A stretch of 64,000 nucleotides of DNA from Actinomyces dentalis DSM 19115. Lineage in GTDB: Bacteria; Actinomycetota; Actinomycetes; Actinomycetales; Actinomycetaceae. The translations under genes and the position numbers were made by a program. The stretch is taken from positions 1-64,000 of the forward strand of contig NZ_AUBL01000003.1 of assembly GCF_000429225.1 (NCBI RefSeq). The letters are read 5' to 3'. A model generated the notes under the pieces. It saw only the letters and a list, made by a program, of their open reading frames with translations. It ran no database searches and was not told the origin of the DNA. Positions 6,063 to 64,000 of the stretch are shown here, piece by piece; within the stretch, counting starts at the first letter, position 1, and each line of letters begins with the position of its first letter.

Positions 6063-9000
6063 ATGGTCGCCCTCTCCCTGATCCCGCTCGGCACGCGCCT
6101 GGCCGAGTTCGTACTGCAAGCCCCGGTCGTGATGGCCGTCCCGTCCGCCGACGCCCTCGGCGAGGAGGTCGCCTCCCGTCTGGAGGCCGGGGTCACGGAT
6201 GCCCGACGCCGATGCGAGGAGCAGGGCGTTGACGCCGTCCTGCTGCGCGGTGCGGCGACCGAGGTCGAGATCCTCCTCGCGGAAGTGGTCGCCGATGACG
6301 ACGCCGTCGGAGCCCTCGCCCGGGAGCCCGGTCACTTCGAGGAGACCCTTCGCGAGCGGGCCCGGGATCGCCGCCGGGACGTGGAGGCGGCGGTCGAACC
6401 CTTCTTCGACGCGCTCGTGGGGGCCGTCTGCGGGGAGTTCGCGCGACTGGTACCGGAATCCGCGTGTCCTCGGCGCGGGGACCCCACCCGCCCGCGCATC
6501 CGGTTCGGCAGCCGTCCCGCGGAAGATCCCGGGTTCGTCGTCAGGCGGGAGCAGGCGAGGCTGTTCGACGCCGTCTTCTCCGAGGCCGCGCCGCGCACGG
6601 TGCTCACGGGAGCGGCCGGCAGCGGGAAGTCGCAGCTCGCGACCGCCGTCGCGGCCCGCTGCGAGGCGGAGGGCTGGCCGCTCGTCGCCTGGATCAGCGC
6701 GGAGTCCCGCGGGGCCCTCGTCTCGGGGTTGTCCGGCCTCGGCCGAAGGCTCGGCGTCGACGGCGGGCGGCAGCACTCCCCCGAGGATTCCGCGCGGCGG
6801 TGCCTTGAGGCGCTGGCGTCAGCGGAACGGGCGGACCGGCTCATCGTCCTGGACGATTTCGACAGTCCCGACGACCTGACCGACCTCATCCCTCGTGGGG
6901 AGGGGCTGCGAGTCCTGGCCGCGACGAGACGAACGGATTGGGATCAGGACCGCTTGGCGCATATTCGCGTGGGGGGCTTCGAGCGAGAGCAGTCGATCGG
7001 AATGCTGCTCGACCGCACGAATCAGACCGACCGCGAGGCGGCGGACGCCATCGCCGAGACTCTCGGCGACCTGCCGCTGGCAGTTTCGCAGGCCGCGGCA
7101 ACTATCAAGCGCGGCCGGTACGGTCTCGAGGATTATCTCGAGCAACTCGAGAAAGGCTCCTCGAGGCCACGGCGCCACCGTCCGGAGGGGGATTGTTCCG
7201 AAGCGATTGGTACAGCTCTGCGGCTGGACTTCCAGAGTGCGTTCGAATGGATCGGGAGTCGGAGCCCGCGCCAGGCCATGATCACCCGTTACAATCTCGG
7301 CATTCTCGCCCTGCTCGCCGCCTCGGGAATACCCAGACGCTGGATGGAGGGCGCGGACGAGGGGTCCTCCGACGCCCGTGAGGCGCTGAACGCGCTCATC
7401 GAGTCCTCGGTCTGCAGACTGTCGGAGGACGGCACCAGGGTGATGCTGCCCCGGCTTCAGGTCCAGGTCATCCACGAGGACTGGGAGAACGATCCGGTGC
7501 AGCGGGAGCGGACCGAGAGGGAGGCGGTCGGTCTGCTGAATGTGGCGGATTTCTTCTACATACAGAAATCGCAGGGGGAGGTCCGGCTCCGGGAGGTCCT
7601 CGACCTTGTGGACCAGTTGCGGGCGACGGCCGAGCAGAACTACTCGAAGAACCTGTTCGCTAATCCCCGAATCGGAGACGCCATCACGGCCGTTCTCCAG
7701 TGCACGGCGGAACTCGGGATTCCCCAGGCGTCCCTGCTCCTGTCCGGCGCCGTGGAACGTCTCAGCGATTCCCTGGGATCCGATCATCCCGAGGTCGTTC
7801 TGCGCGCGCGCACCAGTCTCGCCTACGCCTACAGGGATACGGAAAGGCTCGATGAGGCCATCGACCTGTACGAACGGGCCCTCGCCGACAGCGCCCGCGA
7901 TCTGGGGCCGGATCACCCCCGCACCCTCGCCGTCCGCGACGCTCTTGCGGGTGTTTACCGGGAGACGGGCGAACTCGATCGGGCCATCCCCCTGTATGAA
8001 CGCAGTCTCGCCGATCGACTCCGCATCCTGGGCGCCGATAATCTCGATACTCTGCGCTCGCGCAACAATCTCGCCTACGTATATCAGACTGCGGGAAGAC
8101 TCGATCAAGCCATTGATCTGTTCACGCAGAATCTGGCGGAGCACGAGCGCCTCCTGGGCCCCGATCACGCCCTCACCCTCAGTGCCCTCAGGAATCTCGC
8201 CAACGCCTGCCAGGAGGCGGGCAGGATCGACGAGGCCACACCCCTGTTCGAGCGGGTCCTCACTGACAGCATCCGCATTCTGGGGCCCGATGATCCCGGC
8301 ACCTTCATCTCCCGCAACAATCTCGCGGGAGCCTATCAGGGGTCGGGAAGGATCAACAAGGCGATTCCCCTGTTCCAGCAGAACCTCACCGACAGTGCTC
8401 GGGCCCTGGGTCCCGATCATCACGACACGGTCGTTTTCCGCAACAATCTTGCGAACGCCTACGCGATCGCGGGGAAGCTCGACCGGGCCATCCCACTGTT
8501 CGAGCAGATCCTCAACGATCACGAACGATCCCTGGGGCCGGACCATCCCCACACCCTCGCCTCCCGGGGGAATCTCGCAGATGCTTATCGGGAGGCGGGC
8601 CGACTGGAATCCGCCATTGACCTGTTCACGAAGAACCTGGCATATCACGAGCAGATCCTCGGCCCCGAGAATCCAAATACTCTCTCATCGCGCAACAACC
8701 TCGCGGGTTCATATAAGGACGCGGGCAGGCTGGAGAAGTCCATCGAGCTGTTCGAGCGGGTCCTGACGGACCGCGAACGCATTCTCGGACCCGATCACCC
8801 CGACACCCTCGCTTCCCGGAGCAATCTCGCGGGCGCCTACCAGGAGGCGGGGAGGATTGATGAGGCAATTCCCCTGTTCGAGCGGGTCCTGACGGACTGC
8901 GAGTGCTCATTGGGGACCGCGGATCCTCACACTCTCGCCGCGCGAAACAATCTCGCGGGCGCGTACTTGAAGTCGGGTAAGCTGGATCAGGCCCTCCTCC

Positions 9001-9560
9001 TGTTCGAGCAGGTTCTGACGGACCGCGAACAGGCTCTGGGCACCATGCATCCTCTCACCATTATCTCGCGCGGCAATCTCGCGGGCGCCTACGGGGACGC
9101 GGGCGAGCTCGCCCTGGCCGCCGATATGTTCGAGCAGACCCTGGTTGACAGTCAGCGCGTTCTGGGACCCAACCACCCGCACACCCTCACCTCGCGCAAT
9201 AACCTCGCCAGCACCTGTCTCGCGATGGGGAGGTTCGACCGGGCCATCGACCTGTTCGAGCAGAATCTCGCCGAGAGCCAGATACTCCTGGGACCCGACC
9301 ACCCGCACGCCATAGCCTCCCGGGGAAATCTCGCCGCGGCTCATCGCGATGCGGGCAGGCTCGACGAGGCCATCGACCTGTACGAGCGGACCCTGGCCGA
9401 CTGCGAACGGGTCCTCGGCCCCAAGCACCCCCAGACCGAGCTCTTCAGGAATAGGCTCGCCGCCGCCTACTGGGCCGCCGAGCGCTCCGAGGACGCCAGG
9501 GCCCTGCTGGGCCCTCTGCCCGATATCGATGGCACAGGTGCGGACCGGACCGGCGACTGA
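6063..9560 (+). CDS. STAND-type NTPase with 14 C-terminal tetratricopeptide repeats
   Basis: A 1165-residue protein. Residues 1-135 form a helical N-terminal domain shared with the next two genes (it begins with the shared PLGTRLA). A STAND/NB-ARC-like NTPase follows, with Walker A GAAGSGKS at 183-190, Walker B LIVLDDFD near 260-267 and a GDLPLAVSQA (GxP-type) motif near 337. A winged-helix-like segment containing LNALIESSVCRL lies near 440. From about residue 570 there are 14 TPR units of 42 residues, each ending LGPDHPxT. STAND proteins act as signal-sensing switches: TPRs sense a ligand and the NTPase drives oligomerisation of an effector. No known toxic effector domain is visible, so the N-terminal domain may recruit one. 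Its closest logical partner here is the CHAT gene, but they are 5 kb apart and linkage is only inferred. Confidence 0.85.
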   Translation: MVALSLIPLGTRLAEFVLQAPVVMAVPSADALGEEVASRLEAGVTDARRRCEEQGVDAVLLRGAATEVEILLAEVVADDDAVGALAREPGHFEETLRERARDRRRDVEAAVEPFFDALVGAVCGEFARLVPESACPRRGDPTRPRIRFGSRPAEDPGFVVRREQARLFDAVFSEAAPRTVLTGAAGSGKSQLATAVAARCEAEGWPLVAWISAESRGALVSGLSGLGRRLGVDGGRQHSPEDSARRCLEALASAERADRLIVLDDFDSPDDLTDLIPRGEGLRVLAATRRTDWDQDRLAHIRVGGFEREQSIGMLLDRTNQTDREAADAIAETLGDLPLAVSQAAATIKRGRYGLEDYLEQLEKGSSRPRRHRPEGDCSEAIGTALRLDFQSAFEWIGSRSPRQAMITRYNLGILALLAASGIPRRWMEGADEGSSDAREALNALIESSVCRLSEDGTRVMLPRLQVQVIHEDWENDPVQRERTEREAVGLLNVADFFYIQKSQGEVRLREVLDLVDQLRATAEQNYSKNLFANPRIGDAITAVLQCTAELGIPQASLLLSGAVERLSDSLGSDHPEVVLRARTSLAYAYRDTERLDEAIDLYERALADSARDLGPDHPRTLAVRDALAGVYRETGELDRAIPLYERSLADRLRILGADNLDTLRSRNNLAYVYQTAGRLDQAIDLFTQNLAEHERLLGPDHALTLSALRNLANACQEAGRIDEATPLFERVLTDSIRILGPDDPGTFISRNNLAGAYQGSGRINKAIPLFQQNLTDSARALGPDHHDTVVFRNNLANAYAIAGKLDRAIPLFEQILNDHERSLGPDHPHTLASRGNLADAYREAGRLESAIDLFTKNLAYHEQILGPENPNTLSSRNNLAGSYKDAGRLEKSIELFERVLTDRERILGPDHPDTLASRSNLAGAYQEAGRIDEAIPLFERVLTDCECSLGTADPHTLAARNNLAGAYLKSGKLDQALLLFEQVLTDREQALGTMHPLTIISRGNLAGAYGDAGELALAADMFEQTLVDSQRVLGPNHPHTLTSRNNLASTCLAMGRFDRAIDLFEQNLAESQILLGPDHPHAIASRGNLAAAHRDAGRLDEAIDLYERTLADCERVLGPKHPQTELFRNRLAAAYWAAERSEDARALLGPLPDIDGTGADRTGD

Positions 9561-55793: not shown

Positions 55794-56870
55794 TCAGATC
55801 AGGTCGCGGGACCTCATGTCGACCAGGGCGTCGATGAGGGTCCGGTTGTCGTCCACCGTGAGGGCCCCGATGTGGCCGACGCGGAGCAGGGTCTGCGCGA
55901 GCTCGCCTCCGCTGGGGGTGACCCAGATCCCGTAATCCGTCTTGAGGGTCTCGACGACGTCCTTCGCGCCGGCCGTCGTCGGGTGGAGCGGAGTCACCGC
56001 GTTCGACAGGCTCTCGGAGGTGATCTCGAAGGGGAGTCCCGCCAGCCGGCGCCTGAAGTCCCCGGCGAGGAGCCCCGTCCTCGTGATCTCGGCCTCGACA
56101 CCGCCCCTCTCCTCGATCTCGCGCAGCCTCTGGTTGATCTGGAGGAGGACGCCGACCGCCGGGGTGAAGGGGGTCTGCCCGCGGTCCCCGTTGGCCAGCG
56201 CGCTCCTCAGGTCGAGGTACATGCACTTGCTCGGGTGGGCCGCCACGCGCGCCAGGGCCCGCGGGGACAGGGCGATGAGGGAGATCCCCGGCGGGCAGGC
56301 CAGCGCCTTCTGCGACCCCGCGATGACGACGTCGATGCCGGCTGCGCCCATGTCCAGCGGGTCGGCGAGGAAGGAACTGATCGCATCGACGACGAGGAGC
56401 AGCCCGTTGCGCCTGCAGAAGTCGGAGATCAGGTCGAGGTCGTAGAGCACCCCGGTCGAGGTCTCGTGGATATTGACGACGAAGGCCGTGAATCCCCGCG
56501 CACCCTCGAATGGTTTCAAATCGTCGTCGGTCAGCGCCCTGCCGAACTCCGGGGAGATGCGCTCGAAGTCGACGGAATACAACTCGCACAACTCGCAGAA
56601 GCGCCTGCCGAAACTGCCGCCGTCGACGACGACGGCCCGGTCGTCCTCGCACAGGACATTCATAATGGAGGCCTCCATCGAGGCCGTTCCGGAGCCCGTG
56701 ATGAAGACGGCGCGAGAGCCCTCGGGAGCGTGCAGCAGATCGAGGAACATCCGCTCGTTCTCCTTCATCACGGCCGAGAATTCCGGGGTCCGGAAGTATG
56801 GGACCTGCTCGCCGCCGATCCTTCTGATGGAGTCGTCGGCCTGGACCGGTCCGACGGTGAAATTGATCAT
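55794..56870 (-). CDS. Class V aminotransferase of the glycan cluster
   Basis: A 358-residue PLP enzyme of the alanine-glyoxylate/2-aminoethylphosphonate transaminase group. Visible are INFTVGPVQADDSI, VFITGSGTASMEASI (cofactor phosphate site), HETSTGVLYDL, VVDAISSF (the PLP-binding Asp) and the Lys in IAGSQKALACPPG. ATG 56870 is chosen because AAGGATG lies seven bases upstream, although a longer frame exists. Genes of this type beside cytidylyltransferases often build an amino group on a small alcohol or phosphonate that is later CDP-activated. No PEP mutase is visible, so a phosphonate product is not supported. It is transcribed after the fused cytidylyltransferase gene. Confidence 0.8.
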   Translation of the reverse strand: MINFTVGPVQADDSIRRIGGEQVPYFRTPEFSAVMKENERMFLDLLHAPEGSRAVFITGSGTASMEASIMNVLCEDDRAVVVDGGSFGRRFCELCELYSVDFERISPEFGRALTDDDLKPFEGARGFTAFVVNIHETSTGVLYDLDLISDFCRRNGLLLVVDAISSFLADPLDMGAAGIDVVIAGSQKALACPPGISLIALSPRALARVAAHPSKCMYLDLRSALANGDRGQTPFTPAVGVLLQINQRLREIEERGGVEAEITRTGLLAGDFRRRLAGLPFEITSESLSNAVTPLHPTTAGAKDVVETLKTDYGIWVTPSGGELAQTLLRVGHIGALTVDDNRTLIDALVDMRSRDLI

Positions 56871-57003
56871 TGTCGCATCCTTATGCAGCAGTTCCATGGG
56901 GGACCAGCGCCCTCCGCGCCCCGCGATCGGGGCGGTGACCGGGTCGGTCCGACGCGGACCACCCTACCGACCGCGGGGAGCGGCGGCGTCGGCCCTCGCG
57001 GGC

Positions 57004-58350
57004 TCAGATGGTGTGGACGCCCGCGCCGCCCCTGAAGATCTCGATGATCTCCGCGATCTTCCTGGTGAGCTCCTCGGTGACGATGCTCTCCCGCGCCTCG
57101 TTGCGGATCCTGCGGACGAAATCGGCCAGCTCGTCCCGGATGCCGTCGCCCTCGAACTGGTAGAAGTAGCGGCGGTTGTCCCGCGGATCCTCCTTGCGGA
57201 TCTCGAAGTAGTCCATCTTCCACCACGGCGCCGGGGCGTAGACGTACCCCCTGGTGCCGGCCACGACGAGGTCGCCCTCGGCCTTGACGCCGCCCCCGGC
57301 TTTGAGGGTCGCCTCGGCGCGCGGGTACCTCATGATGATCTTCGTGTACTGGTCGACGTGCGAGGCCTCGTCGAACGAGGCGATGAAGGACAGGTCCACC
57401 GGGTCGTGGCCGAGGATGTCCAGGGCGGGCAGCAGCACGTACGGCCCCCAGTCCGTCATCGCCCCCGCCCCCTCGCGCCGGTCGCCGGACCAGCTCGGGC
57501 GCACGTGCAGGCTCGTGCAGGTCGCCTCGACGCTCTTCACCTCGCCGATGACCCCGCCCTTGAGCAGGAGCTTCATCCGCTGGAAGGCCAGGGAGTACGC
57601 GGTCTTCAACGCCTCGGCGAAGACCAGGCCCCGGTCCCGGGCGAGGTCGAGCAGTTCGGCCGCGTCGCCCGCGTCCAACGCGACCGGGGTCTCGCACAGC
57701 ACGTGGACCCCGTGCTCCAGCGCCTTCTTCGCGACCAGTGAACGTTTGCGCGGCGAGACCACCGCGTACACCGCGTCCACGGCCGGGAGGAGCTCCTCGA
57801 GGTCGGCCGCCTCCTCGACCGGGGATTCGCCCCCCCTCCCCGCCGTCCCGGACGGCCCCCGGTCGGCGTCGAGGCACATCGTCACGCGCAGTCCGCCCAC
57901 GTGGCCGCACTCCTCCAGGAGGCGGTCGAGCGATGTCCCGTCCCCCACGACGCCCAGGCGCAGGTCGTGGCCGCCGCTGCGCAACTCGGTGCTCGAGATC
58001 CCCCGGGTCCGCGGCAGGTAGACGACCTTGCAGAACTCCGAGAGGTAGTCGAACCTGCCCGCCCAGTCGTCGCCGATGGCGAAGACGTCGACGCCGTAGC
58101 GCCTGATGTCGTCGATCTTCTGCCCCTCGTACTCCTCGATGATCACCTCGTCGGCCAGGCCCGTGGCCTTGACGGCCTCGACCCGCTCATTGAGGGACTG
58201 GCGCACGAGGAGCTTGCCCCGCATCTTGTCGAACCCCTCGGTGGTGACGCCCACGATGAGGCGGTCCCCCAGGGCGCGCGCGTTGCGCAGGAGGTTGATG
58301 TGTCCGCGGTGCAGGAGATCGTACGTGCCGTACGTGATGACGGTGACCAT
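57004..58350 (-). CDS. Cytidylyltransferase fused to a Gfo/Idh/MocA-type oxidoreductase
   Basis: A 448-residue two-domain protein. Residues 1-132 are a TagD-like glycerol-phosphate cytidylyltransferase (ITYGTYDLLHRGHINLLRNA with the HxGH CTP site, GDDWAGRFDYL and the closing RTRGISSTEL). Residues 137-448 form an oxidoreductase: Rossmann start LRLGVVGDGTSLDRLL, LCETPVALDAGDAAE and a C-terminal half with EGDLVVAGTRGYVYAPAPWW. In the Gfo/Idh motif EKP the Lys position reads CETP, so the catalytic Lys is Thr or shifted. ATG 58350 is preceded by GGAAAG; a TTG 12 bases earlier is rejected. A CDP-linked polyol or modified glycerol made in one polypeptide is the likely theme. It precedes the aminotransferase gene in the same direction. 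Confidence 0.85.
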   Translation of the reverse strand: MVTVITYGTYDLLHRGHINLLRNARALGDRLIVGVTTEGFDKMRGKLLVRQSLNERVEAVKATGLADEVIIEEYEGQKIDDIRRYGVDVFAIGDDWAGRFDYLSEFCKVVYLPRTRGISSTELRSGGHDLRLGVVGDGTSLDRLLEECGHVGGLRVTMCLDADRGPSGTAGRGGESPVEEAADLEELLPAVDAVYAVVSPRKRSLVAKKALEHGVHVLCETPVALDAGDAAELLDLARDRGLVFAEALKTAYSLAFQRMKLLLKGGVIGEVKSVEATCTSLHVRPSWSGDRREGAGAMTDWGPYVLLPALDILGHDPVDLSFIASFDEASHVDQYTKIIMRYPRAEATLKAGGGVKAEGDLVVAGTRGYVYAPAPWWKMDYFEIRKEDPRDNRRYFYQFEGDGIRDELADFVRRIRNEARESIVTEELTRKIAEIIEIFRGGAGVHTI

Positions 58351-58774
58351 TATTCTTTCCAATCGGGCGGAGTCGGGATCTTCGTGGCTCAGGGCTCATC
58401 CGGATGCGCCCGGCGATCGGCGGCACACCGACGCCGGACCCCTCGGGCCCCTCGATCCACCGCGTGAACGGCCTTGACGCGGTCATGGTACTCGTGCGCC
58501 GCCCAAGAGGCTCGCCGCCGCGACCGGACCCCGGCGCCGCCCGCCGCGGGCGTGCGCCCGGAGCGCCGGCGATGTCCAGGCCACTGGATCGCCCCCGCGG
58601 AGCCCGCGTTGCACTCCCGGTCAACACGCCGAGAACCCGGGGCACCGGGCAACCGGCCGCAGGCTTTGCCGCCCCCTGGCCGGAGGCCGGGCGCCGTCGT
58701 ATGCTTCCGGGTGCTGGCTTCCCCCTTCAGCCCTAGGCCGATCAGGGCTCCATTGACGTCAGAGTGAGGCTTCA
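58351..58774. other. Divergent intergenic region in the glycan cluster
   Basis: A 424-bp region with no gene-like frame. TATGCT at 58700-58705 could be a -10 for the rightward glycosyltransferase, without a clear -35. ATTGAC occurs twice near the right end (58752 and 58774), the second including the TTG start. Nothing else was recognised. Confidence 0.35.
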
Positions 58775-59831: not shown

Positions 59832-60716
59832 TCAGCTCCGGGGGGCGTGGGGCCCCAGGATCACCGTCGACGCCTCGTGGTTGACCCGCTGGTCCTCCGG
59901 CGGCAACTGCATGTAGTCGCCGTAGTGGCGGGTCAGGATGGTGTCGAAGTCCCGGGCGGTCATGACGGTGGTGTCCTCGAAGGGGACGCGCTGGGCGGGG
60001 AACAGTTCGTCCAGTGAGGCCGACCAGTGCGCAGGATCCCGGGTCGAGAAGTCCCCCAGTCTCGTCGATCCGCTCCCCTCGTAGCGACGGGCGGCGCGCT
60101 CCCAGCGCCTTTCGAGGGTGATCGGCTTGACGCGGGCGGCGCGCAGCCCCCAGTGGATCAGGTGCATGATGGCGCCGGCGAGCTGCTTGACGGGGAAGGG
60201 CAGATCGACCTCGGGGGTCGGGGTCCCGTGGAGGAACAGCAGACGCCCCCACAGCCACGTCGACCGGGCCTGGCGGGAGAAGGCGGACGGGTCCTCGGGG
60301 ATCGGGTCGAGCGGGAAGAGGTCGATGCCGATGGGAATGGGGAATTTTCGGTTCCTGGCCACCTTCGGGGTGAAGGTCGACCCTACCAGCCCCAGGATGC
60401 CGAAGGTTTTGGGGTAGTCGGGGTGCGACCGCGAACTGAGGACCTCGAACTCGGGCGGCAGGATCGCCGGCGCCTCGGCGAGGAAGCGCTCGTAGTCCCC
60501 ACGAGGCATATACACGTCGATGTCGTCGTCCCAGGGGATGAATCCCTTGTGCCTCGCGGCGCCGATCGCGGTCCCGCCGCACACGACGTAGGAGATTCCC
60601 AGCTGCTCGCACACGGCGTCCAGCTCCCGGAGAATCATGAGGAGCGCCGCGTGGATCTTATTCAGCAGCTCGGGGTCGGTCGTGTCCTGAGGATCTTTTT
60701 GTTGCGAGTCACTCAT
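59832..60716 (-). CDS. LicD-family phosphotransferase
   Basis: A 294-residue nucleotidyltransferase-fold protein that transfers phosphocholine or a similar CDP-activated group to glycans. The LicD signature VCGGTAIGAARHKGFIPWDD is near residues 44-63, followed by DIDVYMPRGDYERF. LEVLSSRSHPDYPKTFG-like text (EVLSSRSHPDYPKTFG) and PIGIDLFPLDPIPED also match the family. ATG 60716 is preceded by AAGGA. It is the last gene of an operon after the LicB-like permease and the LicC/LicA-derived gene, an order close to lic loci of Streptococcus and Haemophilus. Actual substrate (choline, ethanolamine, aminopolyol) is not readable. Confidence 0.88.
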   Translation of the reverse strand: MSDSQQKDPQDTTDPELLNKIHAALLMILRELDAVCEQLGISYVVCGGTAIGAARHKGFIPWDDDIDVYMPRGDYERFLAEAPAILPPEFEVLSSRSHPDYPKTFGILGLVGSTFTPKVARNRKFPIPIGIDLFPLDPIPEDPSAFSRQARSTWLWGRLLFLHGTPTPEVDLPFPVKQLAGAIMHLIHWGLRAARVKPITLERRWERAARRYEGSGSTRLGDFSTRDPAHWSASLDELFPAQRVPFEDTTVMTARDFDTILTRHYGDYMQLPPEDQRVNHEASTVILGPHAPRS

Positions 60717-60775
60717 GGCGGTCCTTCGCACGGAGGCGTACCTATCGCGGGCATACTACTCGTAGTCGAGGCGGG

Positions 60776-61771
60776 TCATGCTGCGGTTACGCCGCCGTCG
60801 CCGTCAGGACTGGCGCCGAGCCCGCCGTCAACGCCGGCCCGCCTCCGACCGCGCAGTGGTCGCAGGTCCTCCCAGCGGGGGGTCGCCGCGAGCACCGTGC
60901 CCGTGAGGATGACGACGCAGCACCCCACCTGGAGCGGGCTCGGCGCGGTGCGCAGCAGGATCAGGGCGAAGACGACGGCCCAAGCGGAGTAGGAGATGTT
61001 GAGCGCCATGCCCCGGGAGGCCCCGATGGTGCCGATCGCCTTGTAGTAGAACAGGTAGGAGGCGGTCCCGGCCAGGGCGGCCAGGGCGATGACGCCGGTG
61101 GCGGGGGTCGGCACGGCCCGGGCGGCGAAGCCGAGGGCCCCCGAGACCGGTGCGACGACGACGAGGTAGGTCAGTCCCGACGTGGTCTGCCGGATGTGCA
61201 GGGCGGTCTCGTTGTCCACCTTGTCGTCCCTCATGCCCCAGGCCAGGACGACGGCCTCCGAGCCCCAGCCGAAGACGCAGCCGAGCGCCGCGAGCACGCC
61301 CACGAGCGCGGAGCCGCGCGTCTGCTCGGCGGAGGAGGACCAGCCGATGAGCACAATGGCGCTCAGGGCGACCAGGAGGGCGGCGATCTGGCGGGGCCGC
61401 ATCCGCTCGCCCAGCAGGAGGAGGGCCAGCAGGGTCCCCACGGCGGGGTAGAAGGTGGAGATGATCGCGGTGTACCCGGGGCCGATGTTATTGATGGCGA
61501 TGAGGTAGCCGGTCATGCCGACCGGTCCGCCGAGCAGGGCCCCGACCACGACGGCCAGGCCCGAGCGCGTCCTGATCGCGGCCAGGGTGTCGCCCAGGCG
61601 CCCCCGCACCGTCATGTACACCAGGAGGATGAGGGCGCAGACGGCGTCGTGGAGCGCGGCACTGGCCAGGGAGGCCTGTCCCGCGCCGAGGAAGGGCGCC
61701 AGTGCCAGGGCCATGCCGAGCACAACCGTGTCCAGGCCCCACAGGGCTCCGGAGAAGATGCCGTACCTCAT
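60776..61771 (-). CDS. LicB-like DMT-superfamily permease
   Basis: A 331-residue protein with ten hydrophobic segments in two EamA halves. It opens MRYGIFSGALWGLDTVVLGM and has YTAIISTFYPAVGTLLALLL and NISYSAWAVVFALILLR, typical of choline permease LicB and its relatives. ATG 61771 overlaps the stop of the upstream gene (ATGA), fixing the start. A 25-residue Gly/Asp tail ends the protein. In lic loci LicB imports choline for LicA; here the kinase seems damaged (see neighbouring gene), so the imported substrate may go elsewhere. Assignment to LicB rests on context plus fold, and another metabolite transporter is possible. Confidence 0.8.
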   Translation of the reverse strand: MRYGIFSGALWGLDTVVLGMALALAPFLGAGQASLASAALHDAVCALILLVYMTVRGRLGDTLAAIRTRSGLAVVVGALLGGPVGMTGYLIAINNIGPGYTAIISTFYPAVGTLLALLLLGERMRPRQIAALLVALSAIVLIGWSSSAEQTRGSALVGVLAALGCVFGWGSEAVVLAWGMRDDKVDNETALHIRQTTSGLTYLVVVAPVSGALGFAARAVPTPATGVIALAALAGTASYLFYYKAIGTIGASRGMALNISYSAWAVVFALILLRTAPSPLQVGCCVVILTGTVLAATPRWEDLRPLRGRRRAGVDGGLGASPDGDGGVTAA

Positions 61772-62754
61772 GCCCGGGCCCCCTTCGCGGTCGCGCGGGC
61801 GGCCGACTCGTACTCGGCCAGCAGACGATCGACGTGGTCCGCGGCGTGGCGGTAGTAGATGAACAGCCACTCGCCGACGAGCTCCAGGGAGGCGGTCTCG
61901 GCCCGCCGGTCGATGATCTTGTCGGTGCCGATGCCCGGATGCCGGTAGACGTACTCCCGGTCGTCGACGGCGAAGTGGCAGAACGGGTTGGTGATGCCCT
62001 GCTTGAGGGGGTAGAAGTCGTGGATCTGAGACTTGGCGCAGCCCAGGGCCGAGGAGATGATGCCGATCACCTTCGAGTCGACGTTCTCCATGAGCATCGG
62101 GTCGAAGCCCCTGATCTCGTCGACGGAGTCGAACTCGTTGATCACCCCCGCCGGGTAGCGCCGGATGACCATGTCGAGCTCCTTGACGTGGTCGAGGTAG
62201 ATCGACTCCCGCAGCAGGGGGGCGGTGCGGGGCAGGTCGTAGACCTCCTCCGGGATCCGGGTGAAGGCGGCGGAGAAGGCCCGGTCGAAGTAGGCGTGGC
62301 CGAGCATGATCCAGGCGTCGCGCCCTCCGATGGTCGCGCCGAACTGCTCGGCCAGGTGGAAGAAGTACTCCTTCTTGCAGCCCACCACCACGGCGACGTC
62401 AGTGATGCCCGCCTCGTGGAGCTGGCGGATCTGGCACTCGATGAGGGTCTCACCGCGCACGCGCAGGGTCCCCTTGGGGTGCTCGTAGGAGATGGGGGCG
62501 AAGCGCTCGGACAGGCTCGCAACCATGATGACGGCGTTGTTCACGCGGTACGGCTCCGTCGCCTCCAGGCCGGCGTCCGTGATGCGCCGCCGGCCGACGA
62601 CGCAGCCGCGGGCCTCGAGCTCGCGCACGGCGGCGTTGACGCTTCCCAGGGACATGCCCGTGGCCTCGTGGAGCCGGCACTGGGTGAGGGGCTCGTCGGC
62701 GCGCGCGAGCGCGTGGAGGACGTCGAACTGGGACTGGGTGAGAGAAGTGGGCAT
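61768..62754 (-). CDS. Winged-helix/LicC/LicA fusion protein with two apparent internal deletions
   Basis: A 328-residue protein. Residues 1-60 are a MarR-like winged helix (LTQSQFDVLHALARADEPLT, GSVNAAVRELEARGCV). Residues 70-115 start a LicC-type cytidylyltransferase (NNAVIMVASLSERFAP, HPKGTLRVRGETLIECQIRQ, VAVVVGCKKEYF). After FGATI the text jumps to GGRDAWIMLGHAYFDRAFSA and DSVDEIRGFDP. It then continues into the LicA choline-kinase N-terminus (SSALGCAKSQIHDFYPLKQG, REYVYRHPGIGTDKIIDRRA) but stops after about 50 more residues ending in a tail helix. Full fusions known to me are near 600 residues. So the CTP/metal part of LicC and most of the kinase appear missing, and the AAG of the nucleotide loop reads VAS. 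It may be catalytically dead and retained as a regulator. AATGGT lies six bases before the ATG. Confidence 0.7.
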   Translation of the reverse strand: MPTSLTQSQFDVLHALARADEPLTQCRLHEATGMSLGSVNAAVRELEARGCVVGRRRITDAGLEATEPYRVNNAVIMVASLSERFAPISYEHPKGTLRVRGETLIECQIRQLHEAGITDVAVVVGCKKEYFFHLAEQFGATIGGRDAWIMLGHAYFDRAFSAAFTRIPEEVYDLPRTAPLLRESIYLDHVKELDMVIRRYPAGVINEFDSVDEIRGFDPMLMENVDSKVIGIISSALGCAKSQIHDFYPLKQGITNPFCHFAVDDREYVYRHPGIGTDKIIDRRAETASLELVGEWLFIYYRHAADHVDRLLAEYESAARATAKGARA

Positions 62755-63119
62755 CGGTCCACCATTCGTTCGTCGAGGTCGAAGTGCCGGCGTGCGTTCG
62801 AATGTAGCCGGTGGCCGGGAGGCGCGAGCGCCGAGGAGGTGTCGTCTTCCTCTCGGCGCTCGCCCCAGGGTGTCGGCGAGGCCGGAGGCGGATTGTCCGA
62901 TGTCCGGTGTTCTCGGGGTGCCGGCGTGGCGGGGCGCGGCCGATCCGCGGGATGGACGCTGGGCGTGGCGCGCCCCGGGACGTTCCTCGAGAACTGGCGC
63001 GACAGGCCGGTCGTGATGGATGATGGCGCCGGCCCCGGGGCGGGGCTCGACTCTCAACACCACCCGTCGTCCCCGCAGTACCGTCGGCGCCCACCAGGCC
63101 CTACCCAGTCAGGTTTTTG
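62755..63119. other. Divergent intergenic region between licC-like gene and flippase
   Basis: 365 bp without a gene-like frame in either direction. AATGGT, the possible leaderless -10 of the left gene, lies at 62761-62766 on the reverse strand. The end reads AGGTTTTTG directly before ATG 63120, where AGG could be a weak ribosome site. No repeat or operator stands out. Confidence 0.35.
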
Positions 63120-64000
63120 ATGACTCCACCAGATCCCTCAGTCGGGTCTTCCGATCAGCCCGAGCAGCTCCCGCTGCGGACCAACATCATCTGGAGCTCG
63201 ACGGGCTCCTTGACCAAGACGATGTGCAACTGGCTCATCACCATCGCCGCGGTCCGCCTCTCGTCGGGTTTCGACACCGCCGGCGTTCTCGCGCTCGCCA
63301 TGTCCATCTCCAACCTCGTCGTCCCGATCGCCGAGTACCGCCTGCGCACCGTGCAGGTCACCGACGTCCGAGGAGAGCACACCGCGCGGCAGTATCTCGG
63401 CATGAGGGTCCTGTCCTCCGCGGCGGCGATGATCATCGGCGCGGTCTACACGCTCGTCACCAGCAAGCTGAGCCTGTTCCTCGTCATCACCGTCTACTGC
63501 GCCTCGCAGGTCATCGCCACCTTCCTCGAGGGGTTCCACGCGACGGAGCAGAGGCACATGCGGATGGACTACATCGGCATCTCCTACCTCCTCCAGGGCG
63601 GTGGCGGGCTCATCGCCTTCATCGTCGGCATCTCTCTTCTCGACTCGCTCCTGGCAGCGGTCAGCCTGCTCACGCTCATCACCCTCGTGATCGCCGTCGC
63701 CTACGACATCCCCCGCGCGCGGCGGTTCGGCAGCATCCGCCCGGTGATCGACTGGAGGGACGCGGGACTGACCTTCGCCAGGCTCTTCCCCCTCGCCATG
63801 GTCACCGCCGCGCTCAGCGTCGTGACCCTGGTGCCCCGCCAATACCTCGACACGCATCTCGGCTCCAAGGCCCTCGGGATCTACGCCTCGGTCGCCGTCC
63901 CCGCCGTCATCATCCAGGCGAGCGCCGCGTACATCTACACGCCGATCCTCGGCCGCCTCATCGAGCTTCTGACCACCCGGAAGCGCAAGGCCCTCACGCT
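63120..64000 (+). CDS. Polysaccharide flippase (Wzx-like), truncated by the window end
   Basis: An open frame from ATG 63120 to the right edge, 293 codons seen, no stop. After a 20-residue polar tail there are at least seven hydrophobic segments: ITIAAVRLSS, LALAMSISNLVVPIAEYRL, LSSAAAMIIGAVYTLVTSKL, LFLVITVYCASQVIATFLEG, GGGLIAFIVGISLLDSLLAA, LITLVIAVAY and AMVTAALSVVTLVPRQYLDT. The last of these is followed by LGIYASVAVPAVIIQASAAY, a pattern typical of the MATE/MOP flippase family. It would export lipid-linked repeat units for the glycan encoded here. The shadow frames on the reverse strand over this region are not genes. Confidence 0.85.
   Translation, partial: MTPPDPSVGSSDQPEQLPLRTNIIWSSTGSLTKTMCNWLITIAAVRLSSGFDTAGVLALAMSISNLVVPIAEYRLRTVQVTDVRGEHTARQYLGMRVLSSAAAMIIGAVYTLVTSKLSLFLVITVYCASQVIATFLEGFHATEQRHMRMDYIGISYLLQGGGGLIAFIVGISLLDSLLAAVSLLTLITLVIAVAYDIPRARRFGSIRPVIDWRDAGLTFARLFPLAMVTAALSVVTLVPRQYLDTHLGSKALGIYASVAVPAVIIQASAAYIYTPILGRLIELLTTRKRKALT

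Follow-up and report, generated by a model that had tools for sequence, protein, structure and literature searches.

The window analysed here, the first 64,000 nucleotides of contig NZ_AUBL01000003.1 of Actinomyces dentalis DSM 19115, carries a shortened gene for a winged-helix (wHTH)-LicC-LicA fusion, followed by intact genes for a LicB-type EamA permease and a LicD phosphotransferase (Table 1). The open reading frame of the remnant starts with the ATG at 62754 and stops with the TGA at 61770-61768, sharing an ATGA overlap with LicB; LicD lies 44 nt after LicB if the first GTG is its start. The original prediction that the remnant heads an operon with LicB and LicD is borne out, both of these being intact, and the same 4-nt LicCA/LicB overlap recurs in 5 of 13 relatives (the LicB start was located in 13 of the 14 examined). 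LicB and LicD are common to this locus and to the lic1 pathway (LicA, LicB, LicC and LicD) described for Haemophilus and Streptococcus pneumoniae (PMC10434233 and PMC4364537), whereas LicC and LicA in this group are joined in a single polypeptide that begins with a winged helix, and in A. dentalis both catalytic cores are lost.

Because the window also encodes ManA and RmlA, and the contig beyond it carries, by eye, a flippase-like gene and further rhamnose and glycosyltransferase genes, the region is read as a surface polysaccharide locus. It includes a fusion of a TagD-like glycerol-3-phosphate cytidylyltransferase with a Gfo/Idh/MocA dehydrogenase, adjoined by a class V aminotransferase that resembles AEP and phosphoserine transaminases and scores below all their NCBIfam cut-offs. 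Among the matches listed for the 49 genus genomes, sorted by score, the full-length TagD-Gfo fusion was found only in A. dentalis, and the lower-scoring matches listed each cover one part only. The window also encodes a large TPR protein of 1165 aa, in which Pfam matches at least 11-13 TPR units and which contains an AAA-like stretch.

Table 1. Features of the lic operon, its upstream region and other genes of the window
Feature	Position	Strand	Evidence or remark
wHTH-LicC-LicA remnant, cut	61768..62754	-	328 aa, frame open, 984-bp coding length
Winged helix, residues 1-70, MarR-like	62545..62754	-	Still predicted to fold, with pLDDT of 77-93 in 10-residue blocks
Junction of 75-aa LicC deletion	62329..62343	-	Alignment with intact relatives
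Junction of 200-aa LicA deletion	61876..61884	-	Alignment and search with the intact G008 protein
LicB-type EamA permease, intact	60776..61771	-	ATGA overlap with remnant
LicD phosphotransferase, intact	59832..60731	-	Pfam and genus comparison
GAAC half-site 1, retained	62796..62799	-	Comparison with the array of relatives
GAAC half-site 2, retained	62768..62771	-	28 nt after half-site 1; 27 in most relatives
Lost half-site	62826..62830	-	CGCTC where relatives have GTTCA
Perfect 12-bp inverted repeat, 16-nt loop (hairpin)	62824..62863		Divergent intergenic region; covers the place of the lost half-site
TagD-like/Gfo/Idh/MocA fusion	57004..58362	-
Class V aminotransferase	55794..56897	-
Large TPR protein	6063..9557	+

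Architecture of the remnant and its two deletions

The remnant was aligned with 39 intact rows, comprising 26 genes of the genus and 13 named loci, at least four of which repeat a genome among the 26. In the LicC part, 75 aa are missing relative to 38 of these rows and 77 aa relative to the remaining one; in the LicA part, 200 aa are missing relative to all 16 rows in which the anchors were located, the 23 rows without an anchor match being left out of this count. Since the extreme end of LicA (GEWLFIYYRHA...) is retained, both deletions are internal, in agreement with the two in-frame deletions originally predicted, and the AAG to VAS change noted in the nucleotide loop is real. The predicted origin from a full-length wHTH-LicC-LicA protein gained further support from the intact 600-aa protein of genome G008, which, searched against the A. 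dentalis genome, matched three pieces corresponding to its residues 1-138, 213-366 and 567-593. Set against the single ORF of about 600 aa with three domains, the remnant has 328 aa and recognisable domains, two of which are cut.

Pfam recognised a MarR-like winged helix (MarR_2) at residues 5-60 and the start of a MobA/NTP-transferase domain at 74-130, the latter slightly below the cut-off. On the solved structure of S. pneumoniae LicC (1jyk) the remnant aligned in two pieces, to chain residues 27-102 (E 2e-9) and 171-250 (weak, E 0.59 alone), while the LicC and LicA parts of the intact G008 protein matched 1jyk unbroken over 27-247 and choline kinase 4r77 over 36-299, respectively. AlphaFold2, run with 12 sequences, gave a mean pLDDT of 56 and a pTM of 0.37 for the remnant and was confident for the wHTH only (blocks of 77-93, against 26-72 in the later blocks); by eye, the recognition helix of this domain appears intact.

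The metal and substrate residues of LicC are D105, R129, D192 and E216 according to the available text of PMC6697681; their numbers were placed on the 1jyk alignment by our own count. D105 and R129 fall within the deleted stretch, and the remnant keeps a glutamate at the D192 position as well as E216, with the tryptophan that precedes the D192 position replaced by arginine. The Brenner motif (172-181) and the choline kinase motif (190-213) of LicA, as delimited in PMC4364537 and likewise placed on the alignment by our own count, both lie inside the missing 200 aa. Judged by these alignments, the residues on which LicC and LicA activity depends are absent from the remnant, as are both catalytic cores.

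The sequences flanking the LicC junction in intact relatives share 5-11 of 15 bp, with a longest exact run at the junction of 6 bp (17 of 22 genes, those with anchors; one of the 17, L011, appears mis-anchored), and deletion by recombination between direct repeats is unsupported by these flanks. An intact licA or licC gene elsewhere in the genome, for which the original prediction proposed to look, was not found: the 600-aa query matched only the three pieces of the remnant, and PF01633 gave no match, although this profile may miss the present LicA subfamily. A plasmid search returned four records, none named as from this genus.

Distribution of the fusion and a putative operator

Among 49 genomes of the genus, an intact fusion of about 600 aa is present in 30, nothing was found in 18, and a cut gene occurs only in A. 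dentalis; one match, in G030, crosses a stop that by its coordinates is the gene's own end. In the named genomes, all 13 related loci have ORFs of 596-726 aa that include the LicC stretch missing in the remnant, and the aligned relatives carry the same wHTH N-terminus, that is, a winged helix fused to an enzyme. Across the family, 84 of 213 genomes match the fusion. A family of equally short, conserved homologues, named in the original prediction as the observation that would speak against this origin, was seen neither in the 49 genus genomes nor among the matches listed for the 213 family genomes, and no other short gene with both halves appeared among the latter. The remnant is, on the evidence of sequence comparison, a descendant of the full-length fusion and no working member of it. 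LicD and LicCA (whole or cut) co-occur in the same 31 of 49 genus genomes, and A. dentalis alone combines LicD with a LicCA that is not intact. Five genomes (G060, G022, G011, G001 and G069) have the intact fusion and LicD with no LicB match, and may use another choline importer. For A. viscosus and A. gerencseriae, a published survey records Lic-1 enzymes as well as phosphocholine detected with antibodies (PMC10434233).

Upstream of the fusion, a whole-genome pattern search located GTTCA-N25/26-YGAAC-N19-23-YGAAC in 30 of 30 genus genomes with the intact gene, the pattern being mirrored in G019 and G068, while the reversed control pattern was absent from all 49. The pattern had been built from 26 of these 30 genomes; of the others, G060 and G069 are new tests, and G066 and G068 are near sequences already used. 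Further hits, probably chance matches, fall in 2 of the 18 fusion-less genomes and at one more site in G022; neither the genome of A. dentalis nor that of its sister G015 has a match. In a separate comparison of 34 upstream regions (including A. dentalis; four come from a genome already represented or from one close to it, and four more loci lacking an anchor were left out), 30 showed GTTC(A), a GAAC 31 nt on and another GAAC 27 nt further, slightly less in some. The four without the array are A. dentalis, G031 (where the start codon had been set too late, the array being found later), and G019 and L042, in which it is mirrored. Single-base shuffles produced the array in 0.2% of cases, and the spacer between the first two half-sites has a pairwise identity of 38% (25 of 26 rows, selected because they carry the motif). 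The first half-site pair is also present in three Atopobium loci and, with one base changed, in Adlercreutzia; the third half-site was not evident in any of these.

In A. dentalis, two of the three half-sites are retained, and the place of the lost one lies in an arm of the perfect hairpin; the interval 62755-62875 has a fold z-score of -3.25. A promoter and terminator scan of 62700-63200 returned nothing, and no exact 6-mer palindrome was common to at least three of the upstream regions. The LexA motif of SOS boxes is GAAC-N4-GTTC, and such a reading of the GAAC/GTTC half-sites was rejected, as they lie 31 and 27 nt apart. An interpretation of GTTCA as a plain -35 box is less likely, since by eye TATAAT comes directly after GTTCA at the Atopobium loci L050 and L051 (two of three), while TAnnnT stands just before GAAC in many Actinomyces rows.

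Since the array accompanies the intact gene in 30 of 30 genomes and its reversed control occurs in 0 of 49, the intact fusions are probably self-regulated enzymes comparable to BirA, with the array as a putative operator. An array of this kind would be expected of an enzyme that acts as repressor of the operon it belongs to. BirA is an enzyme whose N-terminal domain binds DNA and whose operators are inverted repeats, and is itself autoregulated in only one of the groups studied, according to PMC5343134. As in BirA, a biosynthetic enzyme is fused to a winged helix in the intact relatives, whose operon is headed by a spaced inverted repeat; unlike it, they would combine choline kinase with cytidylyltransferase and bind a different putative operator, and the A. 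dentalis copy has lost the enzyme and part of that operator. The conserved array, with the probable self-regulation through it, is what is new in the present analysis. A wHTH-LicC-LicA regulator is not named in the titles and abstract openings of the literature searched, and the word 'fusion' does not occur in the available text of PMC10434233.

Substitution pattern and the sister genome

Beyond the deletions, the remnant is altered at 14 of 126 columns invariant among 26 relatives (drawn from the 30 intact genus genes, leaving out G060, G066, G068 and G069), against a maximum of 4 of 116 in any one relative and 27 of 2939 for the 26 taken together. The changes are distributed over the wHTH (2/19), LicC (8/74) and LicA (4/33), and a single transition from the nearest codon accounts for 13 of the 14. 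With all 39 rows the remnant is changed at 12 of 100 columns (wHTH 2/12, LicC 7/59, LicA 3/29), followed by L051 with 6 of 106 (2/14, 2/61 and 2/31, respectively). The operon neighbours behave differently: compared with 15 relatives each, LicB of A. dentalis is changed at 0 of 121 invariant columns (up to 7/128 in one relative) and LicD at 1 of 73 (up to 6/78), the LicD relatives being one best hit each, with paralogues mixed. The difference between LicCA and LicB plus LicD corresponds to a Fisher p of 1.3e-5 with columns treated as independent. Because 14 of 126 invariant positions are changed in the fusion while LicB and LicD are quiet, selection appears to have left the fusion as a whole and not its neighbours, which look constrained, with no visible sparing of the wHTH.

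The nearest genome to A. dentalis is G015, with 97% SecA identity over 600 aa against 92% for the next best. Its LicB is 94% identical to that of A. dentalis (dN/dS 0.29, compared with 0.18 for SecA), and searches of G015 found neither LicD nor a LicCA match. By eye, about 20 codons resembling the end of LicCA precede this LicB and end in the same ATGA; a blastn comparison of 20 kb of G015 with the window plus 8 kb aligned nothing beyond LicB and the 34 bp preceding it. The isolated G015 LicB lies at L066 9506-10480 (-), inside an otherwise different locus.

Set against the excess of changes, neither stops nor frameshifts were found: the frame is open over 328 codons. In a simulation at matching divergence, about half of the copies had no stop (0.47 and 0.54 at the two rates closest to it); multiplied by 1/9 for two in-frame deletions, and with small indels not counted, an open frame would arise by luck in about 5-6% of cases. 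Some selection on the frame is therefore likely. This low chance is one of the points in favour of a proposal already made in the original prediction, that the cut protein may have become a choline- or CDP-sensing regulator. In the form considered here, the wHTH would bind DNA and the LicC and LicA stubs would serve the licB-licD operon as a dimerising or sensing part. The confidently modelled winged helix and the two GAAC half-sites kept agree with it, as do the intact relatives, which are very probably self-regulating, and the 2/19 changes of the wHTH lie within the range of intact proteins (G019 has 4/23). However, 2/19 also resembles the rate of the dead parts (8/74 and 4/33), few as these wHTH changes are; the GTTCA half-site is lost; the choline- and nucleotide-binding parts are deleted or changed; and the sister G015 lost nearly the whole gene and kept LicB. 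A regulatory role would suit the ancestor, given its ancestral wHTH and the array in intact relatives, whereas a new sensor in A. dentalis is considered improbable, although the wHTH, folding on a loose tail, may bind DNA.

The assembly is a draft in 90 contigs, listed as 100% complete, and one strain of the species was examined, so that the deletions could in principle be an assembly or sequencing artefact. This is very unlikely: the 14 invariant-site substitutions, the changed operator region and the gene loss in G015 agree in direction with the deletions, the missing pieces are absent from all other contigs, and in relatives no long repeats flank the corresponding LicC stretch.

Probable decay of the fusion and possible donors for LicD

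The reading that best accounts for these observations is that the remnant is a decaying descendant of an intact, probably self-regulated wHTH-LicC-LicA fusion, and it is held with good, though not full, confidence. In the intact relatives, the LicA part would phosphorylate choline and the LicC part would activate the product as CDP-choline, while the winged helix would bind GTTCA...YGAAC...YGAAC at the head of its own operon; the enzyme may in this way sense its substrate or product and control its own supply. In the A. dentalis lineage, two in-frame deletions would have removed both catalytic cores, one half-site of the putative operator would have been lost, and substitutions, most of them transitions, would be accumulating in the remainder at sites invariant in relatives. 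Translational coupling of LicB through the ATGA overlap may have kept the frame open, which would explain its persistence, and the sister species would have gone further, keeping LicB alone. Against decay stand the open frame itself, the apparently intact recognition helix, the two half-sites kept, and the fact that decay of the wHTH as such is unproven, the number of changes being small and exceeded in G019. In addition, an intact LicD is odd if no donor is made: either the loss of LicCA is recent, or LicD uses another donor.

The original prediction had offered, as an alternative, that the operon obtains CDP-choline from elsewhere. No other licA or licC that could provide it was found in the genome, and what is left of the proposal is a different donor for LicD. 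LicD would then take another CDP-activated group, made for example with the TagD-Gfo fusion and the aminotransferase, leaving the choline enzyme free to decay, which is compatible with the decaying remnant favoured above. An intact LicD in a genome in which no LicC or LicA was found, the single case among 49 genus genomes of LicD accompanied by no intact LicCA, and the full TagD-Gfo query matched in A. dentalis only, among the matches listed, all fit such a change of donor. The TagD-Gfo and aminotransferase genes nevertheless lie outside the lic operon, with an opposite-strand glycosyltransferase between, and the substrates of these enzymes are guessed. PntC, the AEP cytidylyltransferase of PMC6697681 (in its available text), shares a LicC-like fold with the remnant, as reflected in a weak match to 6pd1 (E 0.0038), but acts on AEP, and no PEP mutase was found in the genome of A. 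dentalis or of its sister G015; replacement of choline by AEP or another phosphonate was rejected on this ground, which closes that route to a new donor. A change of donor is accordingly rated as doubtful. The chain as a whole, in which phosphocholine decoration is run by a self-repressing enzyme, the A. dentalis enzyme is dead, and LicD serves another CDP-activated group through the TagD-dehydrogenase and the aminotransferase, is a speculative and rather unlikely combination; if true, the locus would represent a donor switch in progress.

The remnant itself would be a case of ordinary gene decay. Surface phosphocholine matters for host mimicry, according to PMC10434233, and how it is controlled in this group is not described in the titles and abstract openings of the literature searched. 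The comparison presented here leads to the prediction that, in Actinomyces and its neighbours, the CDP-choline-making enzyme is probably its own transcription factor, acting on a precisely spaced operator, and the intact LicD of A. dentalis, with no known donor, makes the donor range of LicD testable.
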